A stretch of DNA of 64,000 bases from contig NZ_JABETK010000003.1 of assembly GCF_013240295.1 (NCBI RefSeq), forward strand, positions 248,001 to 312,000, written 5' to 3'. Source of the stretch: Neoaquamicrobium sediminum. GTDB taxonomy: Bacteria > Pseudomonadota > Alphaproteobacteria > Rhizobiales > Rhizobiaceae. A program made the translations under genes and the position numbers. Below the pieces are notes generated by a model. It worked only from the letters and a program-made list of their open reading frames with translations. It made no database searches and was not told the DNA's origin. Positions 40,399-56,820 of this stretch are shown in pieces; position 1 is the first letter of the stretch, and the number at the start of each line of letters is the position of its first letter.

Positions 40399-40494
40399 TG
40401 TCGCTTGGCATTTAAATGCAAGAATGCGGTGGTTTTGCCCGGGTTAGGCACTTAATCGTGAGAATTCCTGCAGCCAGATTCTCAAATTAACTGC
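40399..40494. repeat. Left transposon end with subterminal repeats
   Basis: Terminal TGTCGCTTGGCATTTAA from 40399; repeat copies at 40407-40426, 40447-40465 (GGCACTTAATCGTGAGAAT) and, inverted, 40478-40494. Likely TniA binding sites. Confidence 0.7.
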
Positions 40495-41348
40495 ATTTGC
40501 CTAGAAGCTCGCAGCGTGCCGGCTTGAGCTATCATGTTCTCTGCGGCGTCAGAGAATCGGGCCCGGTTGTCGCCCATCATGTGCCCACGCAGCATCCGGA
40601 GCATTTCCGGGCCGGCGCGCTCGACGATGGCAACGCCGGCCAGCAGAGCCGGCCGCATATCGAGCGGCAGGATCGGCTTTGCAGGTGTGGGCAGATTCTG
40701 CAATTGCTCGGCAACGACATGGTCGAGATCGGGAATGATGGCGCCGAGCACCCGGTAGCGCCAAAGCTCGTGCTCGCGCGGTAGGGGCCAGATCACTCGC
40801 CGCATCAACAGAAGCCGGGCGATTTCGGTCGCCGATGTCCAGGTTCGAATGCCGCGTTCGGCTTCGTCGTCGAGCAGCTTTTCACCCCGCAGAGCCGCAC
40901 GGTGATTTTGCCGGAAAGGGGAGCGAAGTTCACCTTTTCCGAACCCTCGTAGTAGTGTTCCGCAATGTACGCAGGTAATCCGCCACCCCAGCAGCTGGTT
41001 TCGCAGGATTGGCGCTGGTTCCGCGCTACCGGGGCTGCAACGTGCACAGGTCTGTGCCGGCCTCGCGGCGATTAGTCGATGCGACGACTTCGGCACATTG
41101 ATGAAGGTCATTCGACGTAAAACAGCCGGTTTGGCGGCGAAAATACTGGCGAGGCGGACTTCCTGATCGCCGCTCAGATGGAGATCGACTGCTCGCAATG
41201 AGGAGGCCTCCGGCAGGCAATGCTGGAGCATGACGAGCGGCGGAACCGCGTAGAAGGCGGCATGGCGACTGATCCAAGACGACAGAAGCTCGTCAGGGTA
41301 GGGCGGCAATCTCACTGGCAACTGCCGTGGCGGCGCGGTCTCCGTCAT
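40482..41348 (-). CDS. tniQ: TniQ transposition protein
   Basis: 288-residue TniQ/TnsD-family target-selection protein. The N-terminal segment LPPYPDELLSSWISRHA and the zinc-finger cysteines CARC...CVHC are diagnostic. It starts inside the tniB stop (four-base overlap). Helps recruit the TniA/TniB complex to target DNA. Full length. Confidence 0.9.
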   Translation of the reverse strand: MTETAPPRQLPVRLPPYPDELLSSWISRHAAFYAVPPLVMLQHCLPEASSLRAVDLHLSGDQEVRLASIFAAKPAVLRRMTFINVPKSSHRLIAARPAQTCARCSPGSAEPAPILRNQLLGWRITCVHCGTLLRGFGKGELRSPFRQNHRAALRGEKLLDDEAERGIRTWTSATEIARLLLMRRVIWPLPREHELWRYRVLGAIIPDLDHVVAEQLQNLPTPAKPILPLDMRPALLAGVAIVERAGPEMLRMLRGHMMGDNRARFSDAAENMIAQAGTLRASRQMQLI

Positions 41349-42226
41349 GCGAACGCCGCCTCGGCCTCGAACTCCGGCTCCCAGTTTTCGACAGATTCGT
41401 CTGCAATATGCTCTTGGCCGCGTTCGATGGCGTCAACCGCGAGGTCGTTGATCATGTGGAAGATGCTGGCGGTGATGCCCTCGGTTATCTGCAGAATCCG
41501 TCGCAGTGATTTCGGCGTGAGCACCGAGGGTCGACGCAGCGGCGTATTGCGCAGGATCGATGCCACCAGCGTCTCGAACTGCTCGTTCGCCGCCCACCTG
41601 CTCAAGGTGAACTGCTCAAACCGGCGTGCAAGCTGGACGTCGCCACCGATCGCCTCGCGCGCCTCGTTAACGCCGAAGCAGACCAGGGAGATCTGCAGAC
41701 GATTGCTGAGGAAACGCAGCGTGTTCAGGACAATGCGCTGCTCGCGATAAGATCCGGCGAGAATGTTGTGCACCTCGTCGATCACCAGCACCTGCACACC
41801 GATGGCCTCCATGATGCGTAGCGCCGCTTGCTCCATCTGGGCGATATCGGCGCGTGGCCTCTGTGGTGCGCCGAGAAGGGTGAGCAGTTCGGCGTAGAAC
41901 CGCCGCTCGCCGGGCCGGCTCGTCATCTCCATGGCCAGAACGGGCGTCTTCAGCGTACCCGTCACCGGGTTGAAGCACGGCGGGTGTTCGTCCCGGAACC
42001 GCTTCATGATCATGGTCTTGCCCATGCCACTGTCGCCATAGATCGCGACAGAAGGCATGCGTGTGCCGCGTGGATGGTCGAGAAGCCGGCTCAGCCGATC
42101 GAGCGCCTGCTTGGCGCGTGGGTAGAGCACCCATCGGCGCGATCGTATCGCGCGAATGCGCCGCTCGTCCGTTTCGGCAAGCAGTGCGCCGGCGCCGGCG
42201 GTCAGGTGGGAGATTTGATCGCTCAT
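41345..42226 (-). CDS. tniB: TniB AAA ATPase
   Basis: 293-residue ATPase of the TniB/TnsC/MuB class. Walker A GDSGMGKT at 64-71; Walker B VLVIDEVHN around 147-155. Regulates the transposase and target choice. Lies between tniA (14 bases upstream) and tniQ (overlapping), all co-oriented. Confidence 0.93.
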   Translation of the reverse strand: MSDQISHLTAGAGALLAETDERRIRAIRSRRWVLYPRAKQALDRLSRLLDHPRGTRMPSVAIYGDSGMGKTMIMKRFRDEHPPCFNPVTGTLKTPVLAMEMTSRPGERRFYAELLTLLGAPQRPRADIAQMEQAALRIMEAIGVQVLVIDEVHNILAGSYREQRIVLNTLRFLSNRLQISLVCFGVNEAREAIGGDVQLARRFEQFTLSRWAANEQFETLVASILRNTPLRRPSVLTPKSLRRILQITEGITASIFHMINDLAVDAIERGQEHIADESVENWEPEFEAEAAFA

Positions 42227-42239
42227 GTTTCACTCCAGC

Positions 42240-43853
42240 TCAATCTGTATCCTCAACAAAGGGTACAGGTTTGCTGGAGTCGACGCCGCGGAGCGAGCCC
42301 AATCCCCGATCATCCATCTTCGATTTCGAAGAAGCCTTCCCGCGTCGCGCAGCCGCCGTCTTATCGGTTGCCGCCTCGACCAATTCCCGCTGCGCGACGG
42401 CGGTGCGGACGATGGCGCGGGTGTCGACTTCGCGACGGCCCTTCGCACGTAAGGTACGCCGGGCGGTTAGTGCCTCGTGTAGCGTTATCGAGGGCAGGGT
42501 CACGTCGGCATAACGGGCCTCAACGAAGTTTCCCGATGGCCGCCGGACGAAGATGCGCGCCATGTCGCGCGGATCATATTTTACGAGTAGGCGCCGGTCA
42601 GAACGTCCGACGTCGGCGCTCAATGCCGGCGACCAGTAGCGCAGTTTGAACAGATGAATCCCGTCAGGCATCAACGTCCGCTCCTGCTCCGGCAGGAACG
42701 TCAGCCAGAAGCGCATTCGATCTTGCGGCAACCGAAGCGGGATTTCGCCCTCGTGCTCCCGCCACACCGCGATCGGCGGTCGACCCAGACTGCTGTGGAT
42801 CGATTGATGATAAGCGCCGACAATGTCGAGAGCGATGTAGCGCTCGAGCTCCCTCAGAGTCAGTGCCGCATGTCGCTTCGAGTCATAGGCGCCCAACTCC
42901 TGTTCGTTGCTGAACGTTGTTCCGGGCAGGAGATGCAGCCTGCCCATCTGAGTGCCGATCAGGCGCTCGATATGACCGCCGAAACGCGGCTCACCGGGTG
43001 GCCGCCACTCGATCGCGATGCCCGCGTCCTGGCACCCTCGCTTGAAGGCCCGGCTTCGGAAGTCGGCACCATTGTCAACATGCACCATGTCCGGCAGACC
43101 GGCGACGGGCCAGGACTCCGTTATCTCGCGCTCCCGCAGCCATGCCGATTTGTCGAAGACGGAGTGTAGCAGGCACATGCTGGTGGACAGGCGGGACGGC
43201 GCCTCCATCGTGAGATAAAAGCCGGTCACCATCCGGCTGCAGACATCCATCGCCAGCGTCAGCCATGGCCGTCCGATCGGCTGCCGCGTCTCCTCGTCAA
43301 CGACAAAGATGTCTGCCTTGGTATGGTCGATCTGGACCACTGCCAGGGGACGGGAGACTTCGAATGATCCGGGGACGGCCGTTGTCGCCTTGACGATTTT
43401 CTGTTCGCCACGCCGATTTGCGCGCTTCTGCAGGTCGATGTCCTTCACGCGGGCGACGATCGTTCGGCGATGTGGCGGCTTCAGCCCGACCGAAATGCAG
43501 TTCGTCTGCACGTCCCGCACCAACTGCGAGATCGTCGGTCGGGTCCGCTTCAAGTAGAACTTTTTGATAGTCTTGCTAACGATCTCCTCCCGTTTCTCGT
43601 CCAGCGTACGATGACCCACAGGCCGTCCACGCTTGCGATCGACAAGAGACAGAACGGTCCCGCCGACGCGGAACAGCTTGATCAGCCGGTAGGCCGTCGC
43701 CTGACTCACATTCATCCCGGCAGCGAGCCCCGAAACGTTTGCCGCGGTCGCACCGTCAGGATTGCGCCTCAGGAATTCACGGAGCGCATCTGCCCTTCGG
43801 CAAGCTTCATGCCAAAGCGCTTCGTCGATCTCATCAGGGATCCGATCTCTCAT
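42240..43853 (-). CDS. tniA: TniA DDE transposase
   Basis: 537-residue Mu/Tn7-type transposase. N-terminal HTH (MNVSQATAYRLIKLF), integrase core with D176 (QIDHT), D260 (HVDNG) and E296 (GGHIERL), the 35-residue D-E spacing typical of retroviral-type integrases, then a Mu C-terminal barrel. It catalyses strand cutting and joining. Intact, so the element may still be active if its ends are intact. Confidence 0.95.
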   Translation of the reverse strand: MRDRIPDEIDEALWHEACRRADALREFLRRNPDGATAANVSGLAAGMNVSQATAYRLIKLFRVGGTVLSLVDRKRGRPVGHRTLDEKREEIVSKTIKKFYLKRTRPTISQLVRDVQTNCISVGLKPPHRRTIVARVKDIDLQKRANRRGEQKIVKATTAVPGSFEVSRPLAVVQIDHTKADIFVVDEETRQPIGRPWLTLAMDVCSRMVTGFYLTMEAPSRLSTSMCLLHSVFDKSAWLREREITESWPVAGLPDMVHVDNGADFRSRAFKRGCQDAGIAIEWRPPGEPRFGGHIERLIGTQMGRLHLLPGTTFSNEQELGAYDSKRHAALTLRELERYIALDIVGAYHQSIHSSLGRPPIAVWREHEGEIPLRLPQDRMRFWLTFLPEQERTLMPDGIHLFKLRYWSPALSADVGRSDRRLLVKYDPRDMARIFVRRPSGNFVEARYADVTLPSITLHEALTARRTLRAKGRREVDTRAIVRTAVAQRELVEAATDKTAAARRGKASSKSKMDDRGLGSLRGVDSSKPVPFVEDTD

Positions 43854-43884: not shown

Positions 43885-44011
43885 CATTCTCACATTAAGT
43901 GACAAAAGCCAATGCGCATTATCGAATTAACTGCCCATTCGCAAATTAAGTGCTGGCGTAAGCATCTGAAATCATTGAAGCATGATTCTCATCATTAAGT
44001 GCCGAGCGACA
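43885..44011. repeat. Right transposon end with four subterminal repeats
   Basis: Copies of CATTCTCACATTAAGTGC-like sequence at 43885-43903, 43917-43934, 43936-43955 and 43984-44003, all in the same orientation, before the terminal repeat that ends at 44011. Four copies here versus three at the left is the asymmetry seen in Tn7-like ends. Confidence 0.7.
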
Positions 44012-44012
44012 G

Positions 44013-45446
44013 CTTAAGGGCGCTGTACGGGGCTGGGAGGCCAGCTCAGCCGATCGGCGGGCGCGGCACCTCGACGGTCTCGCGGCTCTCGCGTACAACG
44101 TCGCAGCCGCAGCCGCGATGCTCGACTTTCTCGTCGTCTTCGATCGCGAAGAACATACGGGCGAGCACCCGCCCTGGACGATATTCGAGCGGCTCATGCC
44201 GGTCGTAATGGCGGCCCTGCCGCACAACGCCGCGTTCATCGAAGCAAGACTGTTTGCCGTCGCACGCAACGCACTCGGCGCGCTCTCGCCGTCATCGCTC
44301 GTCGCTCTCTGCGACGGTTGGATCGACTGGCTGGAGCGCAACGAACGTGCCGGGCGCTTGCCGAGCGAGTTCTCGCTCGGTGTCACCGAGATCCTGCTGC
44401 AGGCGACCGCGGCGGAGCCGGAACGCCGTGAATCCCGGGTCACGCGCTTGCTCGACTTCACGGGAACCGGCGCGAAGATCACCTTCATAGCCGACCTCAT
44501 AGACCACTGGTCGCTGCTGCGTGACGACGAACGCGCCGCGGTCTTTGAGCGTCTGAAATGCGGTCGCTCGGATGATCGCTGGCTCCAGGCTGTTACCCTG
44601 ACGCGCTCAGAGGTTCCCGACGCGGTCGTCGTGACGCTGCTCCCGGAAGGCATCGACCTTTCACAGCCGCCCACGCGATTGATCGATATGGCGCCGCCCT
44701 CGCTGATTGAGGCTGCGATCCATGTCTATAGCGGCCAGCCTCAGCCCTTGTGGTGGCTCGGCACGCATCACAGCGGCGAGGCCGTCTGGGAACCGGTTAT
44801 GGAGATCATCGCGCGTCGGCCGGACCACCCGCTGTTCGAGCTGGCGTGGGAACACATTGCTTTCAACGGCGACGGCAAGCGTGTGGCGCGCATCGTCGCC
44901 GACCTGGGCGCCAAGAACGCCGAACGCGCACTGAGCATTCTGCTGAGGATTAAGGTCGGGTGCACCGGCAATTTCATGCCGGAGGCCTGGGCGACGCTGC
45001 TCCGCCTGGCCGCCGACTCGGATGAACATGGCCAGTGGCTCGACCGGATGGTCGAGGCGTCGCCCGCGATCCTCGACGACATCTCCGACCTGAGAAATTG
45101 GCTGAGCGACGATGGCGATCTCCGCGGCATGCTCGACCGGCTGCAGAACGACTTCTTACCCTTGGAGATGGCAAAGATCGCCTTCGATCCGCCCGACGAT
45201 GTTGACGCCCGCGAGATGCAGGACAACGCCGTCAAGGTGCTGGCATTCTTGGTCCGTGAGCGCCCACCGGTGCTGTTCGGCACCTGCGATCGCCTGCTTA
45301 GGTGGCTCGAGCGCGCGACGGTCGATACGGCCGAGCTCGTCACCCTGCTGCGCGAGCGGCGCGAAGCGATCTTTGCCGAGCGAGAGGCTATCGAACAAGC
45401 GATGAACCAGCCAGACCTGCCGCTCGACGGCTGGATCGATCCTTAG
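44013..45446 (+). pseudogene. Large alpha-helical protein of unknown function, 5' end removed
   Basis: The frame is open from the transposon end (LKGAVRGWEASSADRRARHL at once) to the stop at 45446, about 478 residues; the ATG at 44118 is internal. Nearly all helical, with many Leu/Ala/Glu/Arg and no transmembrane segment, and segments such as FLVVFDREEHTGEHPPW, LVALCDGWIDWLERNE and PLWWLGTHHSGEAVWEPVME, suggesting a repeat solenoid. No family recognised. The C-terminus (LPLDGWIDP) looks natural. The missing N-terminal part, possibly with an enzymatic domain, is not elsewhere in the window. Confidence 0.6.
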
Positions 45447-46155
45447 CTAAGTTCAGGTCGCCTTCACGACGACGACAATCTCATCTCGCTGCCGCGTTCA
45501 CGTCCCTTGCGATCTCAGAGCGGCGAGCCATCAGAGCATCGAGGGGCGCGGCCTCATCCAACAACAGGCCGTCTTCGGCCATGGGCGTCTCTGAGCAGTC
45601 CGGAATTGTGGCGCGGTGTGTGCGGACGCCGAGCCAGGTCGCGGACGGGCGCCTGACTTTGTGCACGCCCGGCAGCGTCACGATTGAGTTCGCGCCCGCC
45701 CATGGTAGCGGCGGCGTGTCCGCTTCTTGCACCGGCCTTCTCCAAAGCTGCCAGTCCGCTTTCGGCCCCAAAGGCGTCGCTCGTAAAACATTTCCCAATC
45801 TGCGCAACTTAGATGAAGCCTGCAAACCGATCGGGGTGGAAGCGCACTCCAGCGTTTTGTGCGGCGCAGTAGAAATTGCGGTCGTGAAGGTGTCCGCCGC
45901 ACTTTATTGGCATTGCGCCTTCATCAAAGGTTGTACGTCTGCTGCTGGCGGCGCGTCGCAACCCGCTACGACCGATGCGCCCACACCTTCTTCTCGGCCA
46001 TCTGCATCGCAGCAGCCATCATCTTCTGGATCTGATCAATGAGTCCTGAGCGTAGTCCGGCCTTGCTGACCCTACGGAATGGCGGACGCATCGACTACCC
46101 GAGGGCGGAACTTGCGCCAGCAGGGCACGTCCTGTGGGGTTCAGCCCAGAGCGAC
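45447..46155. other. Gene-poor stretch before the first DUF4143 gene
   Basis: About 700 bases. Minus-strand frame 45481-45825 ends in a plausible helical tail (MAEDGLLLDEAAPLDALMAR) and might be a small gene or a fragment, but its upstream part looks non-coding. No promoter, repeat or known relic was recognised before the repeat array at 46160. Confidence 0.35.
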
Positions 46156-46159
46156 TAGA

Positions 46160-46214
46160 CATTTCCCCGGGCGTCAATTATGCATTTCCCCGCATCTTTA
46201 CTATACATTTCCCC
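46160..46214 (+). repeat. Three-unit direct repeat array, 23-bp period
   Basis: CATTTCCCC at 46160-46168, 46183-46191 and 46206-46214, with unit starts exactly 23 bases apart. Preceding bases TAT-N are shared by units two and three, leaving variable spacers of about 10 bases. The array ends 34 bases before the likely ATG (46249) of the DUF4143 ATPase. See the parallel array at 51862. Confidence 0.75.
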
Positions 46215-46248
46215 AACTTCCTGTTATCAATCCGCCCAGCGATCTAAC

Positions 46249-47551
46249 ATGTCGAGGTCACATTCGATGGAAGACACTCTGCTGCCAAGACACCTGCGAG
46301 CCGAACTGCTGGATTCCCTCCGTTCGACGAGGGTGGTCAACATCATCGGCCCTCGACAGGTCGGCAAGACGACTCTGGTTCGGGAGCTCCTCGATGTCGG
46401 GAGGTTCATTACGTTGGACGACGAGAACGTGCTTGCAGCGATGGAGGCCGATCCGTCCGGACAAATCGAAGCGCTCGTGTCTGAAGCGAATGACGTTCCG
46501 CTTATCATCGATCGAGGCGCAGCGATCCAAGCGCCTCGCCCTCGCGATCAAGCGGATAGTCGATGAACGGCGAAGGATGGGGCAGTTCATCCTAACTGGA
46601 TCATCCAATGTGTTCACGAACGCACATGTTGCTGATTCCCTCGCGGGACGGGTCCAGACATTGACGATGCTGCCGCTGAGCGGCGCCGAAGTCCAACGCA
46701 AGGGTCCGGCGAGAATCCTTGACTGGGCAAGCCGCACTCCCGAACCGTTACTTAGGGACTTACCGAAACCAGAACCCGTCTCGAGGAACGGTTATATTCA
46801 GGAGCTTCTGGCGGGCGGCTACCCTGAAATCCGCAACCTGCCGGACCGTAGCCGACAACGTCGCTACCGCGACTATGTGGACACCATTGTTGAAAGGGAT
46901 GTTGCCGATCTCATTAAGGTACGGAAGTCCGATGCCATGCGCCGCCTGATTGATCAGATTGCCGCTCGAACCGCGAACGAACTCAATGTCCAGGAAATGG
47001 GGAGCATCATCGGTGTTCAGCGCCCTACAATCGAGACCTATCTGGACGTGCTTACCAAGCTATCGTTGATGTCGAGGCTCCCAGCCTGGACTTCTGGCGA
47101 GGCCGGGCGCGATATCCGACAGCCGAAGGTTCACCTCGTAGACACGGGAATCGTCGCGGCACTACGGAACCTGACTTCTGAGAGCTTTCTTGCCGATGCC
47201 AATCCGGCAGCGCTCGGTGGAGTGCTTGAAACCTTCGTGCACAACGAATTGTTGAAATCTTTGCCTCATCAGCAGAGTCACTGGCGTCTTTATCATTGGC
47301 GCCACCAACGTGGGCGAGAGATCGATATTCTAGCGGAAACCAACAGAACCATAGTCGGCTTCGAGATGAAGGCATCATCGAACGTCGACTTGAATGATTT
47401 CCGCCACCTGCAATGGTTCCGAACCGACGGCCCCGGGAGCGCCTGGAACGTCATCGGCATCGTCGTCTACCTGGGAGATAGACCTTTGACATTCGGCTCA
47501 AAGCTATTCGCCCTGCCACTATCGTCGTTCTGGTCATTTGCCGCTGACTAG
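46249..47551 (+). CDS. DUF4143 AAA-family ATPase, frameshifted
   Basis: Orphan AAA ATPase. N-terminal AAA_14 domain with Walker A GPRQVGKTT and TLDDENVLAAM; the Walker B region (PLIID) is broken by one extra base near 46508-46513 and continues as EAQRSKRLALAIKRIVDERR, TGSSNVFT and SLAGRVQTLTMLPLS; then a DUF4143 domain (VHLVDTGIVAALRNL, GGVLETFVHNELLK, REIDILAE...IVGFEMKA), which has a PD-(D/E)xK nuclease-like look. About 430 residues when repaired. Start at 46249 (MSRSHSMEDTLLPRHLR) or 46267. It stands alone, preceded by a 23-bp-period array. Relatives are widespread but of undefined function. Confidence 0.82.
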
Positions 47552-48004
47552 GACGTTGGTAGTGGGTTGTTTCTAATGCCGCACAAACGCGCTCTGCCAG
47601 AACTGAGCGTTCTTCCTCTCCCAGAACGTGCACAAGACGCCCAATGTATTCCACATATCACTTAGGGGCTGGGAGCGATGCCAACCCAGTTTGTTGCGAA
47701 TAGCCGCATGATCAGACTTCGCGCGATCAACCGGACTATCCGCAGCCGGGTTCGCTTGAGCCGGAAGCAGGTGCTGTATCAACGGCAGGTCTAGGGCGCT
47801 CAACAGCCCGGCCTGAAAGATCGACTTGGGGGTCGGGAGCCGTCGACTAGGTCAGTCCGAGTTAAACGGCAGCTATTTGGCCCGCGGCGCCCAAAACCCG
47901 ACCATCCGGTATCGGCCCCGGTGCTGCCTTCCACCATTGTGGCGCGATCATTCAATACGGCTTGCCTATGGTGCGCGAACCTCCGCCGATCAACGGAGGT
48001 CCAG
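47552..48004. other. Intergenic, no gene assigned
   Basis: A 453-base spacer. Minus-strand frame 47573-47803 encodes KLGWHRSQPLSDMWNTLGVL, which looks protein-like but matches no family I recognise; it could be a relic. GGAGG at 47994-47998 serves the next gene. Confidence 0.35.
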
Positions 48005-48472
48005 ATGCGTATCATTCTCAATCGCCAGTCGGTGGAAATCCCCGATGAATTTTCCGACGAACCCCTGCTCTTCGTCCTGCGGGACCATTTCGGACTGAAT
48101 GGGCCGCGCTTCGGCTGTGGTGTGGCGTCCTGCGGTGCCTGCACCGTCGTCATCGACGGGGAAGCGCATCGCTCGTGCGTCTATCCGGCCTCGGCAGCAC
48201 AAGGCTCCGAGGTTCTCACGCTGGAAGGGCTTGCAGATAGCGACAAACTGCATCCGGTCCAGCAGGCCTGGATCGAGGAGAGCGTGCCGCAGTGCGGCTA
48301 TTGCCAGAACGGCCAGATCATGACCGCGTTTGCCCTGCTGGCTGCCCGGCCGGATGCCGACGCGTCCGGGATCGAGGCGGTAATGGACGGTGTTCTCTGC
48401 CGCTGCGGCACACAGGCACGCATCCGCAAAGCGATTGCACGAGCGCAAGCCGCAATGGCGGGAGACGCATGA
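48005..48472 (+). CDS. iorA: (2Fe-2S) subunit, isoquinoline 1-oxidoreductase type
   Basis: 155-residue small subunit of a molybdenum hydroxylase carrying two [2Fe-2S] clusters: a plant-type ferredoxin motif [16 protein letters not shown], with a later Cys in HRSC, and a second domain with CGYCQNGQ and CRCGTQ. It passes electrons from the molybdenum subunit encoded next to an external acceptor. The ATG at 48005 is set by GGAGG upstream; the frame to 47921 is not coding before it. ATGA overlap with iorB. Confidence 0.92.
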
Positions 48473-50622
48473 TGCCGAAGCTGTCGCGACGCCGCTTCCT
48501 CACCGCGCTCGGGTGGGGCGCTGCCGGTATCACGGTCGTCGCCGGGGGGCGGCCTGGGCCTTGATGCCGACTCTGCCACCGCGCAATGTGCCGACGTCTG
48601 CGGATGCCGCGGCGTGGCTCAGCTTGAGGCCGGACGGGTTTGTCGAGCTATATTCCACTCGCGCCGAGATGGGCCAGGGCATCTCGATGGGGCTTCGGCA
48701 GGTGGCAGCCGACGAACTGGGCGTCGGCGCGTACCGCGTCCGTCTCGTGCAGCCCGATACGAGCCTGATTCCGGTCGCCCGCTCGACCGTCGGCTCCGAC
48801 GCGATGCGCGAGACGGGTTTGCTGGTGGCGCGCGCGGCGGCGGCCCTTGCCGGCGCCGTTCTGCGCGAGGCCGCGCAACGGCTTGGCCGTCCAGTTGCAG
48901 ACCTGCAACTGGCACCGGATGGCGTCGCATCTGATGGCAAGACGATCCTCACCTTCGAAGAATTGGGCGCAGGCACGCCCCTCCTCATGACCGCCGAGGA
49001 TGCGAGACCGCAACGCCTCGGCTGCTTGCGGTTTCAGACGGTCGGCGCGAGGTCGGCCGCGCCCATCCGACCCACGACATTGATGCAATCGTCACCGGCA
49101 ACCGCCCGCTCTATGCCGACGACATCCGCCTGCCGGGAATGGTGTTCGGTGCGGTCGTCCGCCCACAGACCCTCGGAGGGCGAATCCTTGGCATCGATGC
49201 GTCGGAATGTGGATCGATCCCAGGATTCCTTGGCCTCTACCAGGAGGGCAACTTCGCAGGCCTCATCGCCTCCCGCCGTGGCGCGCTGGCACAGGCGATA
49301 AGCTTGCTTGGTGTCGAAGAAGAGGAAGGGCCGAACATCAATTCCGCCGCCATTGCGGCAATGGTCGACGTCGGTGACGCATCCGGCGCGCTGGAGCATA
49401 GTGTCCTTGATGCAGGCGACACAAGCAGCGGACCGGTCGACGTCGACCTGACGCTCACCGTGCCACACGCCGCCCACGCCTCGATCGAGCCCCGCACGTC
49501 TATCGCCCGGTTCGGTGAGAATGGTGGCCTGGATGTATGGACTGGCACTCAGGATCCGTTCTTCGTCCGAGACAGCCTTGCCGATGAATTCGGCCTCGAC
49601 CGGGACAAGGTGGTGGTTCACGGCATGCGCATGGGAGGCGGTTTCGGAGCGCGAACCATCGTGGCCGCCGAGATGGAAGCGGCGCGGCTGGCGAAGCTCT
49701 GCGGGCGGCCGGTCAAGGTGCAATGGAGCCGGAGCGACGAATTCCGTGCAGGGTTCCATCGCCCTCCATCGTCCCACCGCATCCGGCTTTCAGCAGATGC
49801 GGCAGGACGGATCACGAATTGGCACCACGCATTCCGTTCGGGCCACATCATCTTCACCTCGGCGGCGATGGGACCGGGCCTGCAACTTGCCACCAGTTTC
49901 GTCGCCGACCCGGGTGTCGCGCGGGGCTCGATCCCACCTTACGCGGCGGATGCCAGCCGCGTCGAGTTTCAGGATGTTCGCCTGCCGGTCAAGACCGGTC
50001 CCTGGCGCGGGCTGGGTGCCGCGGCCAACCACTGGGCGGTCGAGACCGCCATAGACGCGCTTGCCCGGGCAAAGGGCATCGACCCGTTGGACATGCGCCT
50101 GAAGTCGATCAAGCCGGAACACGCGCGCTTGAGCACGGTGCTCACCGAGGCGGCGGAAATGGCCGGCTGGGCGTCACGGCCGAAGGACTCACGGAATGAG
50201 AGCTGGGGGCTCGCCTGCGGCATCTACAAGGATATGTCCTACGCCGCCGCAGTGGCGCGCGTGACAAGACGCGATGCCGGGTACACAGTATCCGGCCTGT
50301 GGTGCGCGCATGACTGCGGCCTTGTGATAAACCCCGATCAGGTTCGGGCGCAGGTAGAAGGCAACCTTGTGTGGGGGATCGGCATGGCGTTGAGGGAGGA
50401 GCTGGTGGTGGGGGACGGGCGCATACTGCCCGAGAGCTTCTTCGACTACCCGCTGCCTGTGCTGTCCGATGTGCCGAGCATCGAAATCCGTCTGATCGAG
50501 GCAGCAACGAGCCGACGGGTGCTGGCGAGACCGCGATCGTCTGCGGAACGGCGGCCGTCACCAGCGCCATCGCGGCGATGACGGGCCGGACGGTGACGGC
50601 GCTCCCGGTTAAGGCGGCCTAA
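48469..50622 (+). CDS. iorB: Molybdopterin-binding subunit, isoquinoline 1-oxidoreductase type, three frameshifts
   Basis: Large subunit of a periplasmic molybdenum hydroxylase. Twin-arginine signal ([16 protein letters not shown]), then [25 protein letters not shown], the conserved [16 protein letters not shown] and GAGETAI near the end. Frame breaks: a G-run at 48544-48549, near 49004, and near 50503-50508; one added base at each restores about 718 residues. Family members oxidise N-heterocycles or aldehydes; the substrate is not evident. An AraC-type regulator follows directly, probably for this pair. Confidence 0.87.
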
Positions 50623-50623
50623 C

Positions 50624-51574
50624 TTGGACGATTTCGCCAGCGCGCTTGTTGTGGCGATGGTGAGCCGTTCCCTTGCCCGCCAGTCGATAGCGGTACCTGC
50701 TTCGACGGCCGTAGGTGATCGCACCGTGGACCCGGCCGAGAAGCGGGCGCTACTCGACGGAGTGCTTGGGGCTCATGGCCCGGCAACGATCCTGCGCGTT
50801 GCCGATATCGTGCCGGATTTCGCAGACCATCCGGTCGCCGGCGTGTTCGCCGGATGCCGGACGCCGAGCGATGTGGTCGCAAGCTGGATCGCCATAGAAC
50901 GCTATTTCCATTCCCGGCATCGCACCCGTGTCGTCGACAGCGCTGATGACAGGATTGTCATGGAGCATTTCGACACGTGCGGTTTGTCCATATCTGCAGG
51001 CGAGAACATCGCAGTAGCAGGCTTGATCCTGGGCATTCTCAGGTGGCGCGGGGCGCACGGTGCTGTGTTGAGTTTTGATGGGTCGGTCTCACTCACTGAA
51101 CCTGCCGCACCAGCCGCCCGGACCCATATCTGGTGGGTCTCCTGGCAAGGATTTACGCCTCCGCCGAATGCTCCTTCGCCATCGGACGACGGGCCAGTTC
51201 CCGCCGTCGATGTTGCGGGGCGAAGTATAAGCGATCCCCATGTGAGGCGAGTGTTTGCGGAACAGCTCGGAGCACCGACGAGACGCCGCAGGGCGGCCGA
51301 TATTGCCCACGCGGCAGGGCTCAGCCTTCGGTCGCTTCAGCGGCGGCTGGCGGAAGCCGGCTGGACCCTGAGCGACATTGTCGCCTCCGCGCGTGTCCAT
51401 CTGGCGACGCGGCTGCTTGCAGGAACAGACACCCCTCTTGCGCTCGTCGGGCTGCTTGCAGGCTACAGCGACCAGCCGCACTTCCAACGCGCTTTCCGCG
51501 CCGCAGTTGGCCCGACGCCGGCGGAATACCGGCGCCTGGCCACAAGGCACGAAGAGAACAAACCAACCACTTGA
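50624..51574 (+). CDS. AraC-family transcriptional regulator
   Basis: 316 residues from TTG 50624. C-terminal AraC DNA-binding domain with two helix-turn-helix motifs (AADIAHAAGLSLRSLQRRL and LALVGLLAGYSDQPHFQRAF, then GPTPAEYRR). The N-terminal half is a non-canonical sensory domain. It begins two bases after iorB, so it is likely co-transcribed and controls the iorAB genes. A later start cannot be excluded. Confidence 0.82.
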   Translation: MDDFASALVVAMVSRSLARQSIAVPASTAVGDRTVDPAEKRALLDGVLGAHGPATILRVADIVPDFADHPVAGVFAGCRTPSDVVASWIAIERYFHSRHRTRVVDSADDRIVMEHFDTCGLSISAGENIAVAGLILGILRWRGAHGAVLSFDGSVSLTEPAAPAARTHIWWVSWQGFTPPPNAPSPSDDGPVPAVDVAGRSISDPHVRRVFAEQLGAPTRRRRAADIAHAAGLSLRSLQRRLAEAGWTLSDIVASARVHLATRLLAGTDTPLALVGLLAGYSDQPHFQRAFRAAVGPTPAEYRRLATRHEENKPTT

Positions 51575-51861
51575 CGTGGGAGTACCGGACACGCCACGAT
51601 CGTGGAAACCGCAAGCATCGACGAGACCAATAGCACCAACATGCTGGGAGGGCTTCGCCGCCTGATCCTGAGCGAAAACCCGGTGGATCTGGAACCGATG
51701 GGATGACGGGCTGGCAATTGTTAAAGACGCAGGCGATGCAAACGGCAAAAGAAGCACGCGGCCTGCATTCCACCGTTCAACTTTTGAGTTCGTCCGCCCA
51801 TATCCCAGCCTCAACCAAAAAACGTGGAGGCGGGGGCAATCATCGGATTGCGGTATCGCCA
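51575..51861. other. Spacer with possible short gene fragment
   Basis: About 290 bases. One plus frame at about 51599-51710 reads NMLGGLRRLILSENPVDLEP before a stop, perhaps a relic; no family recognised. A degenerate unit (CGGATTGCGG, 51844-51853) of the array that follows lies at the end. Confidence 0.3.
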
Positions 51862-51962
51862 TTTCAATCCGCGGGCATAAATCCTTCCATTTGCGGCTAC
51901 TCATCTTTCAATTCGCGGAGCGTTGACTTTCAATTCGCGGCTTCATAGCTTTCATTCAGTCA
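51862..51962 (+). repeat. Direct repeat array, 22-bp period
   Basis: TTTCAATTCGCGG and variants start at 51862, 51884, 51906 and 51928, exactly 22 bases apart; a decayed fifth copy (TTTCATTCAG) begins at 51950. The two central-right copies are identical. Each unit is preceded by C, so a 14-bp repeat alternates with 8-base variable spacers. The last full copy ends 33 bases before the ATG at 51974. Confidence 0.8.
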
Positions 51963-51973
51963 CGAAACCCGGC

Positions 51974-53221
51974 ATGCGGATGAGTCGCCTCTCATGTTTA
52001 CCCCGCTATGTAAAGGTACGGATCGAGGAAGCACTCGAGGATACGCGCGTGGTCCTCATCTCCGGCCCCAGGCAGTCAGGCAAGACCACCTTGGCCAAGG
52101 AGGTTTCCGGGAAGGGTATGCAGTTCTTCACCCTCGATGACCCAACTACGCTCGATGCGGCCCGCGCCGATCCGGTCGGCTTCCTTCGTGGCATCGACCG
52201 CGCCGTTATCGACGAGGTACAGCGCGCTCCGCAGCTACTGTTGCCAATCAAGGTCGAGGTGGATCGCGACACGCGGCCTGGTCGCTTTTTGCTTACCGGC
52301 TCCGCCAACCTGATGACAATCCCTAAGGTGGCCGACTCCCTCGCCGGCCGAATGGAGACCATTTCCCTTCTGCCGCTGGCTCAATCCGAAATCCTCGGGC
52401 GACGATCGGCTTTCGTCGACAACCTGTTTTCCGGACGCAAGCCCACGGTGGGCAACTGCATTCACGGAGATGATCTCGTTGAGGTGGTACTCCGCGGCGG
52501 GTATCCTGAGGCCTTTTCTCGGAACCGATGGTCACGACGTCAGGGGTGGTATACCAGTTACATCGATGCGATCGTGCAGCGCGACATAAAGGATATCGCC
52601 CAAGTCGAACAGATAGCTGTAATGCCGCACTTGCTTCGCATGATCGCCGAGCATTCCGGCCAGCTCGTGAACTACTCTTCGATCGGCTCTGCGGCCGGCC
52701 TCAACCATGTTACCACGCAGAAATATCTTCGCATCTTTGAAAGCCTGTTCATCATCGATACGGTCCAGCCTTGGTTCACCAACAAGCTCAAACGACTGAC
52801 GAAATCGCCCAAGCTGCACTTTCTGGATTCCGGGTTGCTTGCGGCGATGCGGGGCATCTCACCCGATAACGTCCGGCGCGACCGTAGCGCCTTCGGCACC
52901 GTGCTCGAAGCGTTCGTCCATAGCGAGGTGCGCAAGATCATCGGCTGGAGCGAGCAGCAACCCTCGGTCTTTCACTTCCGAGATCGGGAAGGGGTTGAAG
53001 TAGACATCGTTCTCGAGGCATCAGACGGGAATATCTCCGGGATCGAGATCAAGGCCGCCGCATCGGTGTCGTCCGGAGATTTCAAGGGATTGCGCAAGCT
53101 CTCAGAGTCTTTGCACAGCAGGTTCACGCAGGGCGTAGTCCTTTACGACGGGGACCAGATCGTCCCTTTTGGTGACAACCTTTTCGCCGCTCCAATATCG
53201 AGCCTTTGGTCAGAGTCCTGA
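51974..53221 (+). CDS. DUF4143 AAA-family ATPase, intact
   Basis: 415 residues from ATG 51974 (or 51980). AAA_14 domain with Walker A GPRQSGKTT, FFTLDDPTTLDAA, Walker B VIDEVQR, LLTGSANLM and SLAGRMETISLLPL; then DUF4143 with LHFLDSGLLAAMRG, FGTVLEAFVHSEVRK and REGVEVDIVLE...GIEIKAAAS, a PD-(D/E)xK-like core. Orphan gene, preceded by a 22-bp-period array like the one before the first DUF4143 gene. The two proteins share fold and motifs but are clearly different in sequence, so they are not a recent duplication. Function unknown. Confidence 0.9.
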   Translation: MRMSRLSCLPRYVKVRIEEALEDTRVVLISGPRQSGKTTLAKEVSGKGMQFFTLDDPTTLDAARADPVGFLRGIDRAVIDEVQRAPQLLLPIKVEVDRDTRPGRFLLTGSANLMTIPKVADSLAGRMETISLLPLAQSEILGRRSAFVDNLFSGRKPTVGNCIHGDDLVEVVLRGGYPEAFSRNRWSRRQGWYTSYIDAIVQRDIKDIAQVEQIAVMPHLLRMIAEHSGQLVNYSSIGSAAGLNHVTTQKYLRIFESLFIIDTVQPWFTNKLKRLTKSPKLHFLDSGLLAAMRGISPDNVRRDRSAFGTVLEAFVHSEVRKIIGWSEQQPSVFHFRDREGVEVDIVLEASDGNISGIEIKAAASVSSGDFKGLRKLSESLHSRFTQGVVLYDGDQIVPFGDNLFAAPISSLWSES

Positions 53222-53406
53222 CCAGGCCTCCGTCGCACCCCGTCGAAAGACAAGTCGCGTGCTAGGTCACCTCCGGGCAGGAACTCATGATCGTGCGACC
53301 AAGGAGTGGAGTAGCCTCGAGCTGACAATGCGGCCTTTAGCAAGCTCTTCCCATGTCAACGCTTCCGTTCGAGAATGTGGCAGTGTCAGTACCCCGGGAG
53401 GTAACG

Positions 53407-53985
53407 ATGTTCATACAAACCATAGAACCAGAACAGGCTGAGGGCGCAGTGGCGGCAATCTATGCCAATGAGTTGGCGTCAATGGGAAGGGTGATGCAGG
53501 CAACGCAATGCTGGTCAGCTAGACCTGACATGCTGGTACCGATCGAGCACTTGTTGCAGCAGTTGAGAGACGGTTTTTCTCTTGGACTGCTCAACTTCCG
53601 GCTCATCACCCTGGTGGCGGCCAAATATGTGCCTTCCAGCTACTGTTCCCAAGTCTACTTCAAGACGCTGTCCGGCATGATCGGAAGGGAACAAGCACTC
53701 GCCGTGCATCGAGACTATAGAAACGCCGGACTGACGGACCAACAGGTCGCCATGCTGGCCTATGCCGAGCAGATCACGGTCGACGCCTCTCGCATAGGTC
53801 AAGCAGACATTGAGGCGCTCCGTGCCGTAGGGCTTTCGGATCTGAATATAGCCGATATCGCTCTAGCCGCCTCGTTTCGCAACTTTTTGAGCCGCTACTT
53901 CGACGCTGTGGGGGCTGAGGCGGAGCCGGAATTTTTGGATAGCGACTTGAGCGTTCGAAGAGAACTCTCAATGACAGCCCTCTGA
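53407..53985 (+). CDS. Carboxymuconolactone decarboxylase (AhpD-like) family protein
   Basis: 192 residues from ATG 53407, which has GGGAGG upstream; the frame to 53353 lacks one. All-helical CMD domain with the segment SSYCSQVYFKTL, where AhpD-like enzymes have a SxYCxxxH site; here the second position is Tyr, so canonical thiol-peroxidase activity is doubtful. The C-terminal half (AFAEQ-like segment AYAEQITVDASR) fits peroxidase-related CMD proteins. No operon partner. Confidence 0.82.
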   Translation: MFIQTIEPEQAEGAVAAIYANELASMGRVMQATQCWSARPDMLVPIEHLLQQLRDGFSLGLLNFRLITLVAAKYVPSSYCSQVYFKTLSGMIGREQALAVHRDYRNAGLTDQQVAMLAYAEQITVDASRIGQADIEALRAVGLSDLNIADIALAASFRNFLSRYFDAVGAEAEPEFLDSDLSVRRELSMTAL

Positions 53986-54347
53986 CGAACGGGTCCACCA
54001 TCTCGCCGGAGCATTTTGAGCACCGCTGTGCCGTAAGTCGAGATTAGAGGCGCGTCAATTGTCGATCAGGGGGATACAATTGACGCGCCAGCTGTCGCCG
54101 TTACGCAAGACAAAGTCGACACTTGAACAGTGAACGCTTGTAGTTAAAATTCGCCTAATCTCCGCCTTGCTAAGGAATGCAGGTGGCACCGTTCAAGCAG
54201 TGAAGTGCGTGCTTGCGCGCCCATTTCCCAGAACGAGGACAACACCTAAACACGCTGTCGGCCCTGTCAAGCAGTACAGCGCGACTATATTCAGGGCCCG
54301 GCAATAATGTGCTATTGCATGCATGGGAACGATGGCGGAGGTGGGGG
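53986..54347. other. Gene-free stretch with a perfect inverted repeat
   Basis: A 362-base spacer, without convincing genes. The 14-bp perfect inverted repeat at 54049-54089 is the main feature. Confidence 0.45.
54049..54089. repeat. Perfect 14-bp inverted repeat
   Basis: GGCGCGTCAATTGT (54049-54062) and ACAATTGACGCGCC (54076-54089) around a 13-base loop. No T-run on either side. Could be an operator, a recombination site or an RNA hairpin. Confidence 0.65.
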
Positions 54348-54560
54348 ATGCTGGTCGATGTAGGCCCGGCCAAGCGCGTGGGCAATCGGAAGAAGATCTA
54401 TGATCGTGCTCTGAGGGAAGAAGACGTTGCGAAGCGCGATGGAATTACGGTGATTACGATCTGCGCTGACGGAATACACGGATCTGGAGCTCTTTATCGC
54501 TATGAATTGCAGCTCAGTCCATCGGACTTGGCCGTGCTCATGGCGACAGTTGACAGCTAG
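54348..54560 (+). CDS. Hypothetical small protein
   Basis: 70 residues from ATG 54348 (GGAGGTGGGGG just upstream). Basic N-terminal half (GPAKRVGNRKKIYDRALRE), then VITICADGIHGSGALYRYEL. No recognised family, no signal or membrane segment. The clear ribosome binding site favours a real gene; the frame to 54213 is unlikely. Confidence 0.5.
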   Translation: MLVDVGPAKRVGNRKKIYDRALREEDVAKRDGITVITICADGIHGSGALYRYELQLSPSDLAVLMATVDS

Positions 54561-54619
54561 AGGGCCCTTGCGAATTTTTGCAGTGGCGACGACTGGTTTT
54601 TTTGGTCGCCGTATTTGGG

Positions 54620-56820
54620 TCAAGCAAGGCCGGGGAGAACCTTATCTACCGTCGCCGGCAAGTCGCGAATACGAACTCCTGTAGCGTTATATATCGCGTT
54701 CAAGATAGCCGCGGCTGCGCCGCAGATGCCGAGTTCGCCAATACCTTTTGCTTGCAAGGGGTTCGCCCATGCGTCCCGCTCCTCAAGCAGTTCAACCTCA
54801 ATCTGCGGAACGTCCGCATTCACCGGCAAATGGTATTCAGCAAAATCGCGATTGACGATATGGCCATCTCGAGGATCGTGCAGAAGTTCCTCCGTTAATG
54901 CCATCCCAATTCCAAAGGTCATTCCCCCAGACATTGTGAACGGGCGGTCTTGGCGTTCAAAATGCGTCCGGCGGCGAATACCCCGAGCATACGGCGCACC
55001 CGCACCTCTCCGGTGACCGAGTTCACGGCCACCTCCGCGAAATAGCTGCCATAAGTAGCCTGCCTGACCTTGTCCTCAGCCTCGCCCGGCTCAACATGGC
55101 CTTCACCGCGGATGTCTTCACCGTTCAGAATATCGACAACGGGAATTCGACGATTGCCCACGACCGCGTGACGATCCTTTAGCGTCAGATCTTCAGGGTT
55201 GCAGTCGAGCTTGGTGCAAAGTTGTTGGCGGATTTCCTCGCATGCGAGGAACACAGCGGTTCCGTTGGAGGCAGCCCCAAATGAACCACCGGAGCCCGAG
55301 GCCGGGGGCAAGTTGGTGTCACCGAGCCTCGTTTCAACGTCCGTCACCGGCAATCCCAGCATTTCCGCTGCAACCTGTCCCAGGATGGCGTATGTGCCAG
55401 TCCCTATATCCGTCATATCGGTCTCAATGGTCGCACGGCCCTGTTTGGTCAGCGTCACGCTCGCTTTCGATTCTATCAACATGTTGACGCGCGCAGCAGA
55501 AGCCATGCCGAGACCGATCAGCCATTCACCCTCACGCACTTCGCCTGGCGATGCGTTGCGCTTCGACCAACCGAACCGTGCTGCGCCGGTCTCAAGGGCC
55601 TTGGCCAGCATGTGCGAGGAGAACGGGATTTCTTTGGACGGGTCCTGGTCGGGGATGTTGCGTCGTCGCAACTCGACAGGATCGATGCCGCAGGCAGCGG
55701 CAAGCTCATCAATCGCAATCTCCAGGGCCGTCACGCCTACTGCCTCACCGGGCGCACGAACCGACCCCGATGGCGTACGATGTATCCGTGCGATCTTATG
55801 GCCAATGGCGCGGTTGTCACCGCAATAAAGAAACGGCGTCGCCTGCGTTACCGGCTCTGAGAACTTTTCGCCGGGAAGATTGGTCACTAGCGCGTCGTGA
55901 CCTATCCCTATCAGTCGGCCTGTTTCGTCGGCAGCCAGACGAATGCGTTGCCTGGTATCTGACCGCCGCAAGACCATCTCAAACTCATTCTGCCGCGTCA
56001 TCGCAACACCAACCGGAGTTCCGAGTTCCTTGGAGGCAATTGCTGCGGCAACAGCTTCAGGGGCAATCCCAAGCTTGGAGCCAAACCCTCCTCCAACATA
56101 GGGCGCGAGCAAGCGAACGTTGTCCTCTTCGATCCCGAGAGCGTCAGCGAGTTCGGCGCGATTATAGCGCAGCATCTGGTAGCTCGCCTGTAACGTCAGC
56201 CTTTCGTCCTCCCACGTAGCGACCGAGGCATGTGGCTCCATCGCCGCGCTTGCGTGTCCGGGCGTCGTATAGGTGGCATCAATCGTGAACGGTGATGCCC
56301 GCATCGCCGCGTCAATGTCACCGCTCGAGGACTGCTTATTGCTCGGCGTATCGAGCTGGGCCGTCGGATCGTCAAGGCTGACCGGCGCGTCCTCGGCCCT
56401 TTCTACCTCCTGCCTCAGGATCTGTGCCCCATGGCGGGCCTGCTCGAATGTATCGGCGACGACCAGCGCAACCGGCTGCCCAAAGAACAATATCTCGCGC
56501 GTGTCTTGTGCGGGTGCCTTTCCGGCCATGCCCTGTGCAGGGTTTTTGATAAAGCGGTCGTCGGCAATCACGGCACGGACGCCCGGCAGCCTCTCGACGC
56601 TATCGACATCAAAGGCACGTAGCCTGCCTTTGGCTACGGTCGAACGCACGAGCACGCCATGGCGACAACCAGCCGGCAGACCGTCCATTGCATAGGTCGC
56701 TCGACCCGAAACCTTGAGTTCTCCCTCGGGGCGGTCGAGCGGCTCGCCGATAACACCCTGGGCCATCTCTTCCAATCGGTCACGGCCGACACGGTCGTCC
56801 ATCTTGTGATGTGCCGCCAT
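54620..56820 (-). CDS. paoC: Aldehyde oxidoreductase molybdenum subunit (PaoC-like), frameshifted
   Basis: Large molybdopterin-cytosine-dinucleotide-binding subunit of the xanthine oxidase family. Visible: PYVGGGFGSKLG, GSVRAPGEAVGVTALE, TDIGTGTYAILGQVAAEMLG and, after a break, AKGIGELGICGAAAAILNAI with the catalytic Glu (KGIGELG). One missing A near 54934-54935 splits the last about 104 residues (MSGGMTFGIGMALTEEL onward) into another frame. About 733 residues when repaired. Third gene of a minus-strand operon with paoA and paoB; E. coli PaoABC oxidises aromatic aldehydes. Confidence 0.88.

Follow-up and report, generated by a model that had tools for sequence, protein, structure and literature searches.

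A short direct-repeat array upstream of a DUF4143 ATPase gene of Neoaquamicrobium sediminum, located in the 64,000-nt stretch of DNA that was analysed (the window), is confirmed as real, and arrays of this kind are a trait of the PDC-S01 family to which the gene belongs. The array probably represents a set of operators in the PDC-S01 gene's own promoter, which would be bound and repressed by the gene's own product through a predicted winged helix.

Four 13-nt units of the TTTCAATTCGCGG type, spaced 22, 22 and 22 bp start to start, make up the window array (51862-51940, + strand): unit 1, TTTCAATCCGCGG (51862-51874); a diverged unit 2, CTTCCATTTGCGG (51884-51896); and units 3 and 4, both TTTCAATTCGCGG (51906-51918 and 51928-51940), the last of which lies between a proposed -35 and -10. 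A decayed unit 5, TTTCATTCAG, is found on the same strand at 51950-51959. All five were read from the sequence; units 1, 2, 3 and 5 were also returned by the chain finder, and units 3 and 4 by a motif search. The chain score over 13-nt windows was matched by none of 2,000 dinucleotide shuffles, and sequence and shuffles together bear out the four copies with a period of 22 originally predicted at 51862, 51884, 51906 and 51928. The chain finder also picked up the decayed fifth copy claimed at 51950 and did not include a degenerate one claimed near 51844. The proposed division into a 14-bp repeat and an 8-base spacer holds in part: the units share a core of 13 nt, or 14 in some cases, which leaves a spacer of 9 or 8. 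The units are not palindromic (best palindrome at the array 6 bp, p 0.99), Tandem Repeats Finder at a score of 40 did not report the array, and Rfam at the gathering threshold returned no match to a described RNA element across 44000-56000. At up to one mismatch, the unit has six copies in the 6.1-Mb genome, three in the array and three lone one-mismatch copies elsewhere, on which ground a regulon built on this unit was rejected; no second array of the unit was found in the genome. At up to two mismatches, the window holds seven matches against 2.4 expected, three of the seven in the array.

DUF4143 has two matches in the whole genome, both inside the window. The first belongs to a gene on the + strand (46249-47551; delimited by reading frames, Pfam and comparison with P0001, the product of the second gene) that is apparently frameshifted in its ATPase domain: the frame with DUF4143 contains just the end of AAA_14 according to Pfam and aligns with P0001 only from residue 80 onward, and the N-terminal part, read by eye, lies in another frame. 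The array upstream of this gene is still intact. It has three CATTTCCCC units on the + strand (46160-46214; sequence and chain finder) starting at 46160, 46183 and 46206, and its chain score was likewise matched by none of 2,000 dinucleotide shuffles. As had been claimed, the periods of the two loci differ (23 at the first array, 22 at the 51862 array), and the distance from array end to start codon is 34 bases at the first (ATG 46249) and 33 at the second (ATG 51974). The first DUF4143 gene adjoins genes for TniQ, TniB and a Mu-type transposase (a Tn5053/Tn7-like TniABQ set, 40482-43853, - strand), and such a set also adjoins a DUF4143 relative on the Salipiger plasmid pTPRO7 (L193); DUF4143 genes may be transposon cargo. 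No Pfam match was found for a 442-aa ORF (44118-45446) that separates the first DUF4143 gene from the transposition genes.

The second gene (51974-53221, + strand) encodes the 415-aa protein P0001 and was identified as PDC-S01 by Pfam, a PADLOC HMM and a structure model. P0001 matches the PADLOC HMM PDLC04790 (PDC-S01) over residues 3-413 with an E-value of 3.8e-173, the PADLOC PDC-S01 HMMs also match nine of its diverse relatives, and Pfam finds both AAA_14 and DUF4143. Across 53 sequences, residues G36, K37, T39, D80, E81, D344 and K360 do not vary, and conservation of E312 and E358 reaches at least 90%; we take these positions to be Walker and nuclease motifs, and the DUF4143 domain presumably is a PD-(D/E)XK domain. 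The latter reading also rests on the available portion of PMC12988326. An AlphaFold model from 53 sequences (mean pLDDT 91) predicts the order ATPase (AAA_14), winged helix (about 214-283) and PD-(D/E)XK-like fold (about 305-391), with the winged helix formed by helices 214-226, 234-239 and 245-257 and strands 261-264 and 280-283. Model residues 2-294 match the archaeal ATPases PABY2304 (2qen, Z 15.4) and SSO1545 (2fna, Z 14.8), CED-4 (Z 13.6) and Avs5 (Z 11.1), and plant NLRs also resemble them; other AAA families reach Z 10-12 against the same residues. As modelled, this part resembles AAA, lid and winged helix in a STAND-like arrangement. The MalT entry 8bob was among the Foldseek matches, a sequence search of the PDB gave no useful match, and scans of PHROGs and NCBIfam gave weak matches only, of no use.

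The PDC-S01 gene mostly stands solo, 8 of 75 relatives being followed within 60 bp by an ORF of at least 100 aa on the same strand. Its examined neighbours in the window are molybdopterin oxidoreductase genes, an AraC regulator and TniABQ, and those of plasmid relatives are toxin-antitoxin, transfer, cas3 or metabolic genes. Four relatives lie on viral contigs, and 9 of 50,697 phage records contain a relative of P0001, all below 60% identity.

The architecture of array and DUF4143 gene, originally predicted to be conserved from two loci, extends far beyond the window. Among 170 non-redundant homologs, a 21-24 bp array at p ≤ 0.01 was found in 93 of the 113 with at least 35% identity to P0001, in 24 of 46 at 25-35% identity and in 2 of 11 below 25%; it was missing in the remaining 22 of 46 and 9 of 11. 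The 170 are what remained once loci with too short an HMM match or upstream stretch, with N, or with a protein at least 90% identical to one already kept had been set aside. A set of 82 relatives from many phyla was drawn from the best 80 relatives plus viral contigs, with L116 (a duplicate of L115) and L099 (without upstream sequence) dropped from the lag analysis. The pooled lag spectrum of their upstream regions (200 bp) peaks at 22 (13 robust SD), 44 (8), 23 (7) and 66 (3), and these peaks are absent from the downstream and mid-gene stretches of the same relatives. Tested one locus at a time, the 21-24 bp array reaches p ≤ 0.01 in 67 of 82 and p ≤ 0.05 in 79 of 82. Controls at p ≤ 0.01 gave 0/77 downstream, 0/82 mid-gene, 1/82 for lags 16-19 and 1/82 for lags 26-29, and 7 of 77 downstream stretches pass at p ≤ 0.05. 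A score of at least 9 was reached by 56 of 101 upstream regions, compared with 42 of 8,138 other windows of the same loci. Because the architecture recurs and comparable scores are rare elsewhere, arrays are neither lacking in homologs nor equally frequent away from DUF4143 genes.

An actinobacterial set, drawn by Pfam family from the class of the Corynebacterium genome of L112, showed arrays in 21 of 23 loci with a spacing of mostly 23 bp (33 places listed, 27 new loci, 23 kept after the same exclusions). Arrays of the family mostly hold 3-7 units. In a first paralog sample just 9 of 23 had an array at p ≤ 0.01, and some GC-rich chains at p ≤ 0.01 (e.g. L089, L091) resemble chance triplet runs. 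The near-identical spacing to the ATG at the two window loci does not carry over to the family as a conserved distance: from the last unit to about codon 11-12, quartiles are 28.5-58 nt and the 5-95% range is 9-96. The array was also considered as a general trait of ATPase-nuclease genes, which was rejected, with arrays upstream of PF09820 ATPases in 1 of 17 at p ≤ 0.01 and 2 of 17 at p ≤ 0.05; these 17 came from 26 loci, the other 9 having no anchor. The sole PF09820 case at p ≤ 0.01 among these 17 (L202) has three units about 22 bp apart upstream of the gene (ATCTGTCCTCTGT, ATCTGATTTCTGA and TTCTGATTTCTGA) and looks genuine.

Repeat similarity drops as the proteins diverge (Mantel rho 0.40, p 0.001, 89 loci), a result that linked inheritance alone would also produce, with a median of 0.67 for proteins at least 70% identical and about 0.26 below 40%. 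Paralogs within one genome have a median repeat similarity of 0.28 (23 pairs), compared with 0.26 for identity-matched pairs across genomes. All 11 rhizobial copies compared retain the array, and their flanks share no same-strand match of at least 150 nt beyond the gene, the array and one fragment in L195; in most rhizobial pairs, homology stops about 80-120 nt beyond where the gene match ends (6-17 nt in pairs with L200). In a search with the R. etli locus, 13 of the 30 records listed align only between a point 0-26 nt outside the array and a point 50-100 nt beyond the gene match. Taken together, the comparisons of repeats, paralogs and flanks indicate that the array is tied to the gene rather than to host or site. 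The L195 fragment, a second stretch some 4.6 kb downstream from where the gene starts, measures about 310 bp, is 76-85% identical to relatives over their array region and gene start, and is a possible orphan array or remnant copy.

A consensus promoter scan found no + strand promoter at the window array. We propose a -35 TTGACT (51923-51928, + strand), positioned with respect to its unit as in 18 other arrays, and a weak -10 TAGCTT (51946-51951, + strand), separated from TTGACT by 17 nt. Within one period of a unit, TTGAC occurs 31 times in 119 arrays, and 22 of the 31 are 3-6 nt before a unit, a placement that comes from 19 of the 119 arrays and has a binomial p of 2e-10 with relatedness ignored; 14 times TTGAC precedes the second-last unit. 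In these 19 arrays, the unit takes up the space from the TTGAC to a -10-like hexamer. TTGAC places the promoter in just these 19, and the other 100 arrays have no placed promoter. An operator function of the array is likely.

Covariation of protein and repeat is at most suggestive of binding by the gene's own product. For all pairs, the best protein window reached 0.170 (permutation 95% point 0.122, maximum 0.199), and the top windows are conserved cores outside the winged helix. In an exploratory comparison of pairs at least 50% identical, windows 329-347 and 238-253 best track repeat similarity out of 390, corresponding in the model to a hairpin of the nuclease-like domain and to the predicted recognition helix, respectively; windows 273-282 and 256-265 rank high too at lower identity cut-offs. 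Across three cut-offs, z values were 0.5/2.0/3.0 for the recognition helix, 1.8/3.7/1.8 for the wing, -0.5/-3.7/-2.1 for the ATPase and -0.9/1.6/0.1 for the nuclease, and the recognition helix stands out just among closer pairs. The best reading is that the own product probably binds the array.

Other branches of the family carry different elements at the same end of the gene. Bacteroidota members (n = 26) have a period of about 32 bp: 31-34 bp arrays were found in 12 of 26, long palindromes in 11 of 26 and 21-24 bp arrays in 2 of 26 (p ≤ 0.01 each), and one or more of the three element types are present in 23 of 26. In Spirochaetota, any operator-like element was present in just 7 of 16. As three operator classes were tested per locus, about 3% of loci would pass by chance, and the internal control gave 1 of 42. 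The palindromes span 25-56 bp (e.g. ATATATGGAATTTTTCGGAATTGAATTCCGAAAAATTCCATATAT) and finish near the start codon; at p ≤ 0.017 they are seen in 16 of the 36 Bacteroidota and Spirochaetota members that lack a 22-bp array, compared with 1 of 50 array-bearing relatives and 0 of 36 in the internal control. Near-perfect palindromes of 45-56 bp by the start codon, unusually long for operators, are seen in four Bacteroidota loci (L285, L263, L259 and L278). Counting arrays and palindromes, most members examined carry a repeated or palindromic element at the gene start.

A clear 21-24 bp array was not found in two Thermus relatives (p 0.10 and 0.035), one Haloferax relative (p 0.78) or one Bacteroides relative. 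The latter two have features of their own. On a Bacteroides finegoldii plasmid (L231), two copies of TTGTAAAA(A/T)TCGCC lie upstream of the gene, with no chain test significant, and resemble units of some Gram-negative relatives (L016, L022). On a Haloferax larsenii plasmid (L228), several related inverted repeats centred on GTTGTAGGGTTGATCCTACAAC precede the archaeal PDC-S01 gene (palindrome p 0.07), and a cas3-type gene adjoins it. The available part of PMC4406477 reports that TT_P0211 (AAA 14, DUF4143) is 6.6-fold up in plasmid-bearing T. thermophilus HB27, only with Argonaute. From position and neighbours, TT_P0211 is taken to be TT_RS11170, upstream of which no 22-bp array was found (p 0.57) and an inverted repeat is present (p 0.01) that could equally be a terminator. 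The rise of TT_P0211 with plasmid and Argonaute, as given in that excerpt, fits inducibility.

In the proposed mechanism, the own product would contact the 13-nt units through its winged helix, with one protomer on each. With a unit every 22-23 bp, or roughly two turns of the helix, neighbouring protomers of a STAND/ORC-like ATPase could share one DNA face and cooperate. Since a unit lies between -35 and -10 in the nearest clade, occupancy should shut the promoter and keep the ATPase-nuclease low. A trigger, plausibly ATP or foreign nucleic acid, would switch the protein, which would then quit the array, releasing both synthesis and activity. A more far-reaching version, which we regard as doubtful, would make PDC-S01 a one-gene sensor-effector whose array (22-23 or 32-33 bp) or palindrome is read by its own product alone, held there as an inert ordered row, and released and derepressed once foreign DNA or a phage product vies for that product or remodels it. 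If true, the array would be both promoter switch and nuclease safety lock, allowing defence without an antitoxin or a second gene.

Several other explanations account for part of these observations. A host transcription factor could bind the array and merely hold the ATPase under its control, much as a defence-island promoter is controlled in the RptR system by a separate repressor acting at three direct repeats (available portion of PMC12255303), and we infer self-binding from sequence; this is nevertheless improbable, given that the repeats of same-genome paralogs differ as much as cross-genome ones, that the repeats stay with the gene on different replicons, that they occur in many phyla, and that the window genome has no second array. 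Homology that starts at or just outside the array in many rhizobial copies, a protein combining an ATPase with a nuclease-like domain, and TniABQ genes nearby in the window and on one plasmid would instead suit an iteron- or transposon-end-like site, in which the array would serve cassette mobility or self-cleavage as a terminus or target, read by the ATPase-nuclease and not transcriptional. We give this little credence, as arrays are one-sided (downstream 0/77 at p ≤ 0.01), TTGAC is interleaved with the units in the nearest clade, and other branches have a palindrome near the same place. A clean empty site was not found in two homology searches able to show one, one of them with the R. etli locus.

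MalT is a STAND activator that acts at repeated boxes, and by analogy the own product might bind the array and activate, with upstream protomers recruiting polymerase. Units are also present upstream of the -35, and the Foldseek match to 8bob agrees with such a role; in the nearest clade, however, the space from -35 to -10 is occupied by a unit, which favours repression, and the palindromes of other branches finish near the start codon, making activation a rather unlikely outcome. A CRISPR-like memory array with variable spacers has only the repeat-spacer look in its favour and can practically be dismissed: the spacers are 8-9 nt, one of them with a TTGACT conserved in relatives, and the 13-nt repeats are diverged. 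The silence of Tandem Repeats Finder might suggest chance or low-complexity repeats, an explanation that is next to untenable against the shuffles at both window loci (0/2,000) and the recurrence in the family with negative controls. Autorepression by the PDC-S01 product remains the reading that we prefer.

PDC-S01 is reported to rank fourth in frequency among defence candidates across prokaryotes and to be a fusion of ATPase and PD-(D/E)XK that is unvalidated and of no known mechanism (PMC12988326). In rumen genomes it is reported as the individual locus encountered most often (PMC13356809). Since its DNA site goes with the gene and varies between genes, PDC-S01 gains a first concrete biochemical handle, in the form of a predicted ligand and a predicted binding domain. 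If confirmed, the silencing and release of a one-gene ATPase-nuclease would become directly testable, and many natural protein-site pairs would be at hand for reading the recognition code of the winged helix.

The idea of an undescribed system does not apply to the gene family, which is already catalogued as PDC-S01, a PADLOC single-gene candidate of DUF4143/COG1373 ATPases with the window gene as a member by HMM. It does apply to the operators within open-licence PMC papers (preprints being outside this scope), in which no description of DUF4143, COG1373 or PDC-S01 operator arrays was found; the ATPase-PD-(D/E)XK fusion described in PMC12988326 is that of the window gene, and the available portion of that paper makes no mention of an operator array. 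CRISPR arrays have long uniform spacers, whereas the window array has 13-nt diverged repeats and 9-nt spacers. Iteron and ORC/DnaA-type repeats are direct, lie about two helical turns apart and are read by AAA proteins with DNA-binding domains; in contrast to these, the window repeats are located at the proposed promoter of a solo gene and probably not at a replication origin. In AAA, lid and winged helix, STAND/NB-ARC proteins, 2qen and 2fna resemble model residues 2-294, to which P0001 would add a C-terminal PD-(D/E)XK domain and self-linked operators. The nearest published control element is RptR on its three direct repeats, which overlap a defence-gene promoter (available text of PMC12255303), as the window array is proposed to overlap that of its own gene. 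There the repeats are 9 bp with a TAGCTA palindrome and a separate small repressor, and repression is experimental, whereas here repression is predicted, the units are 13 nt, non-palindromic and of the TTTCAATTCGCGG type with a period of 22-23 bp, and the gene mostly stands on its own.
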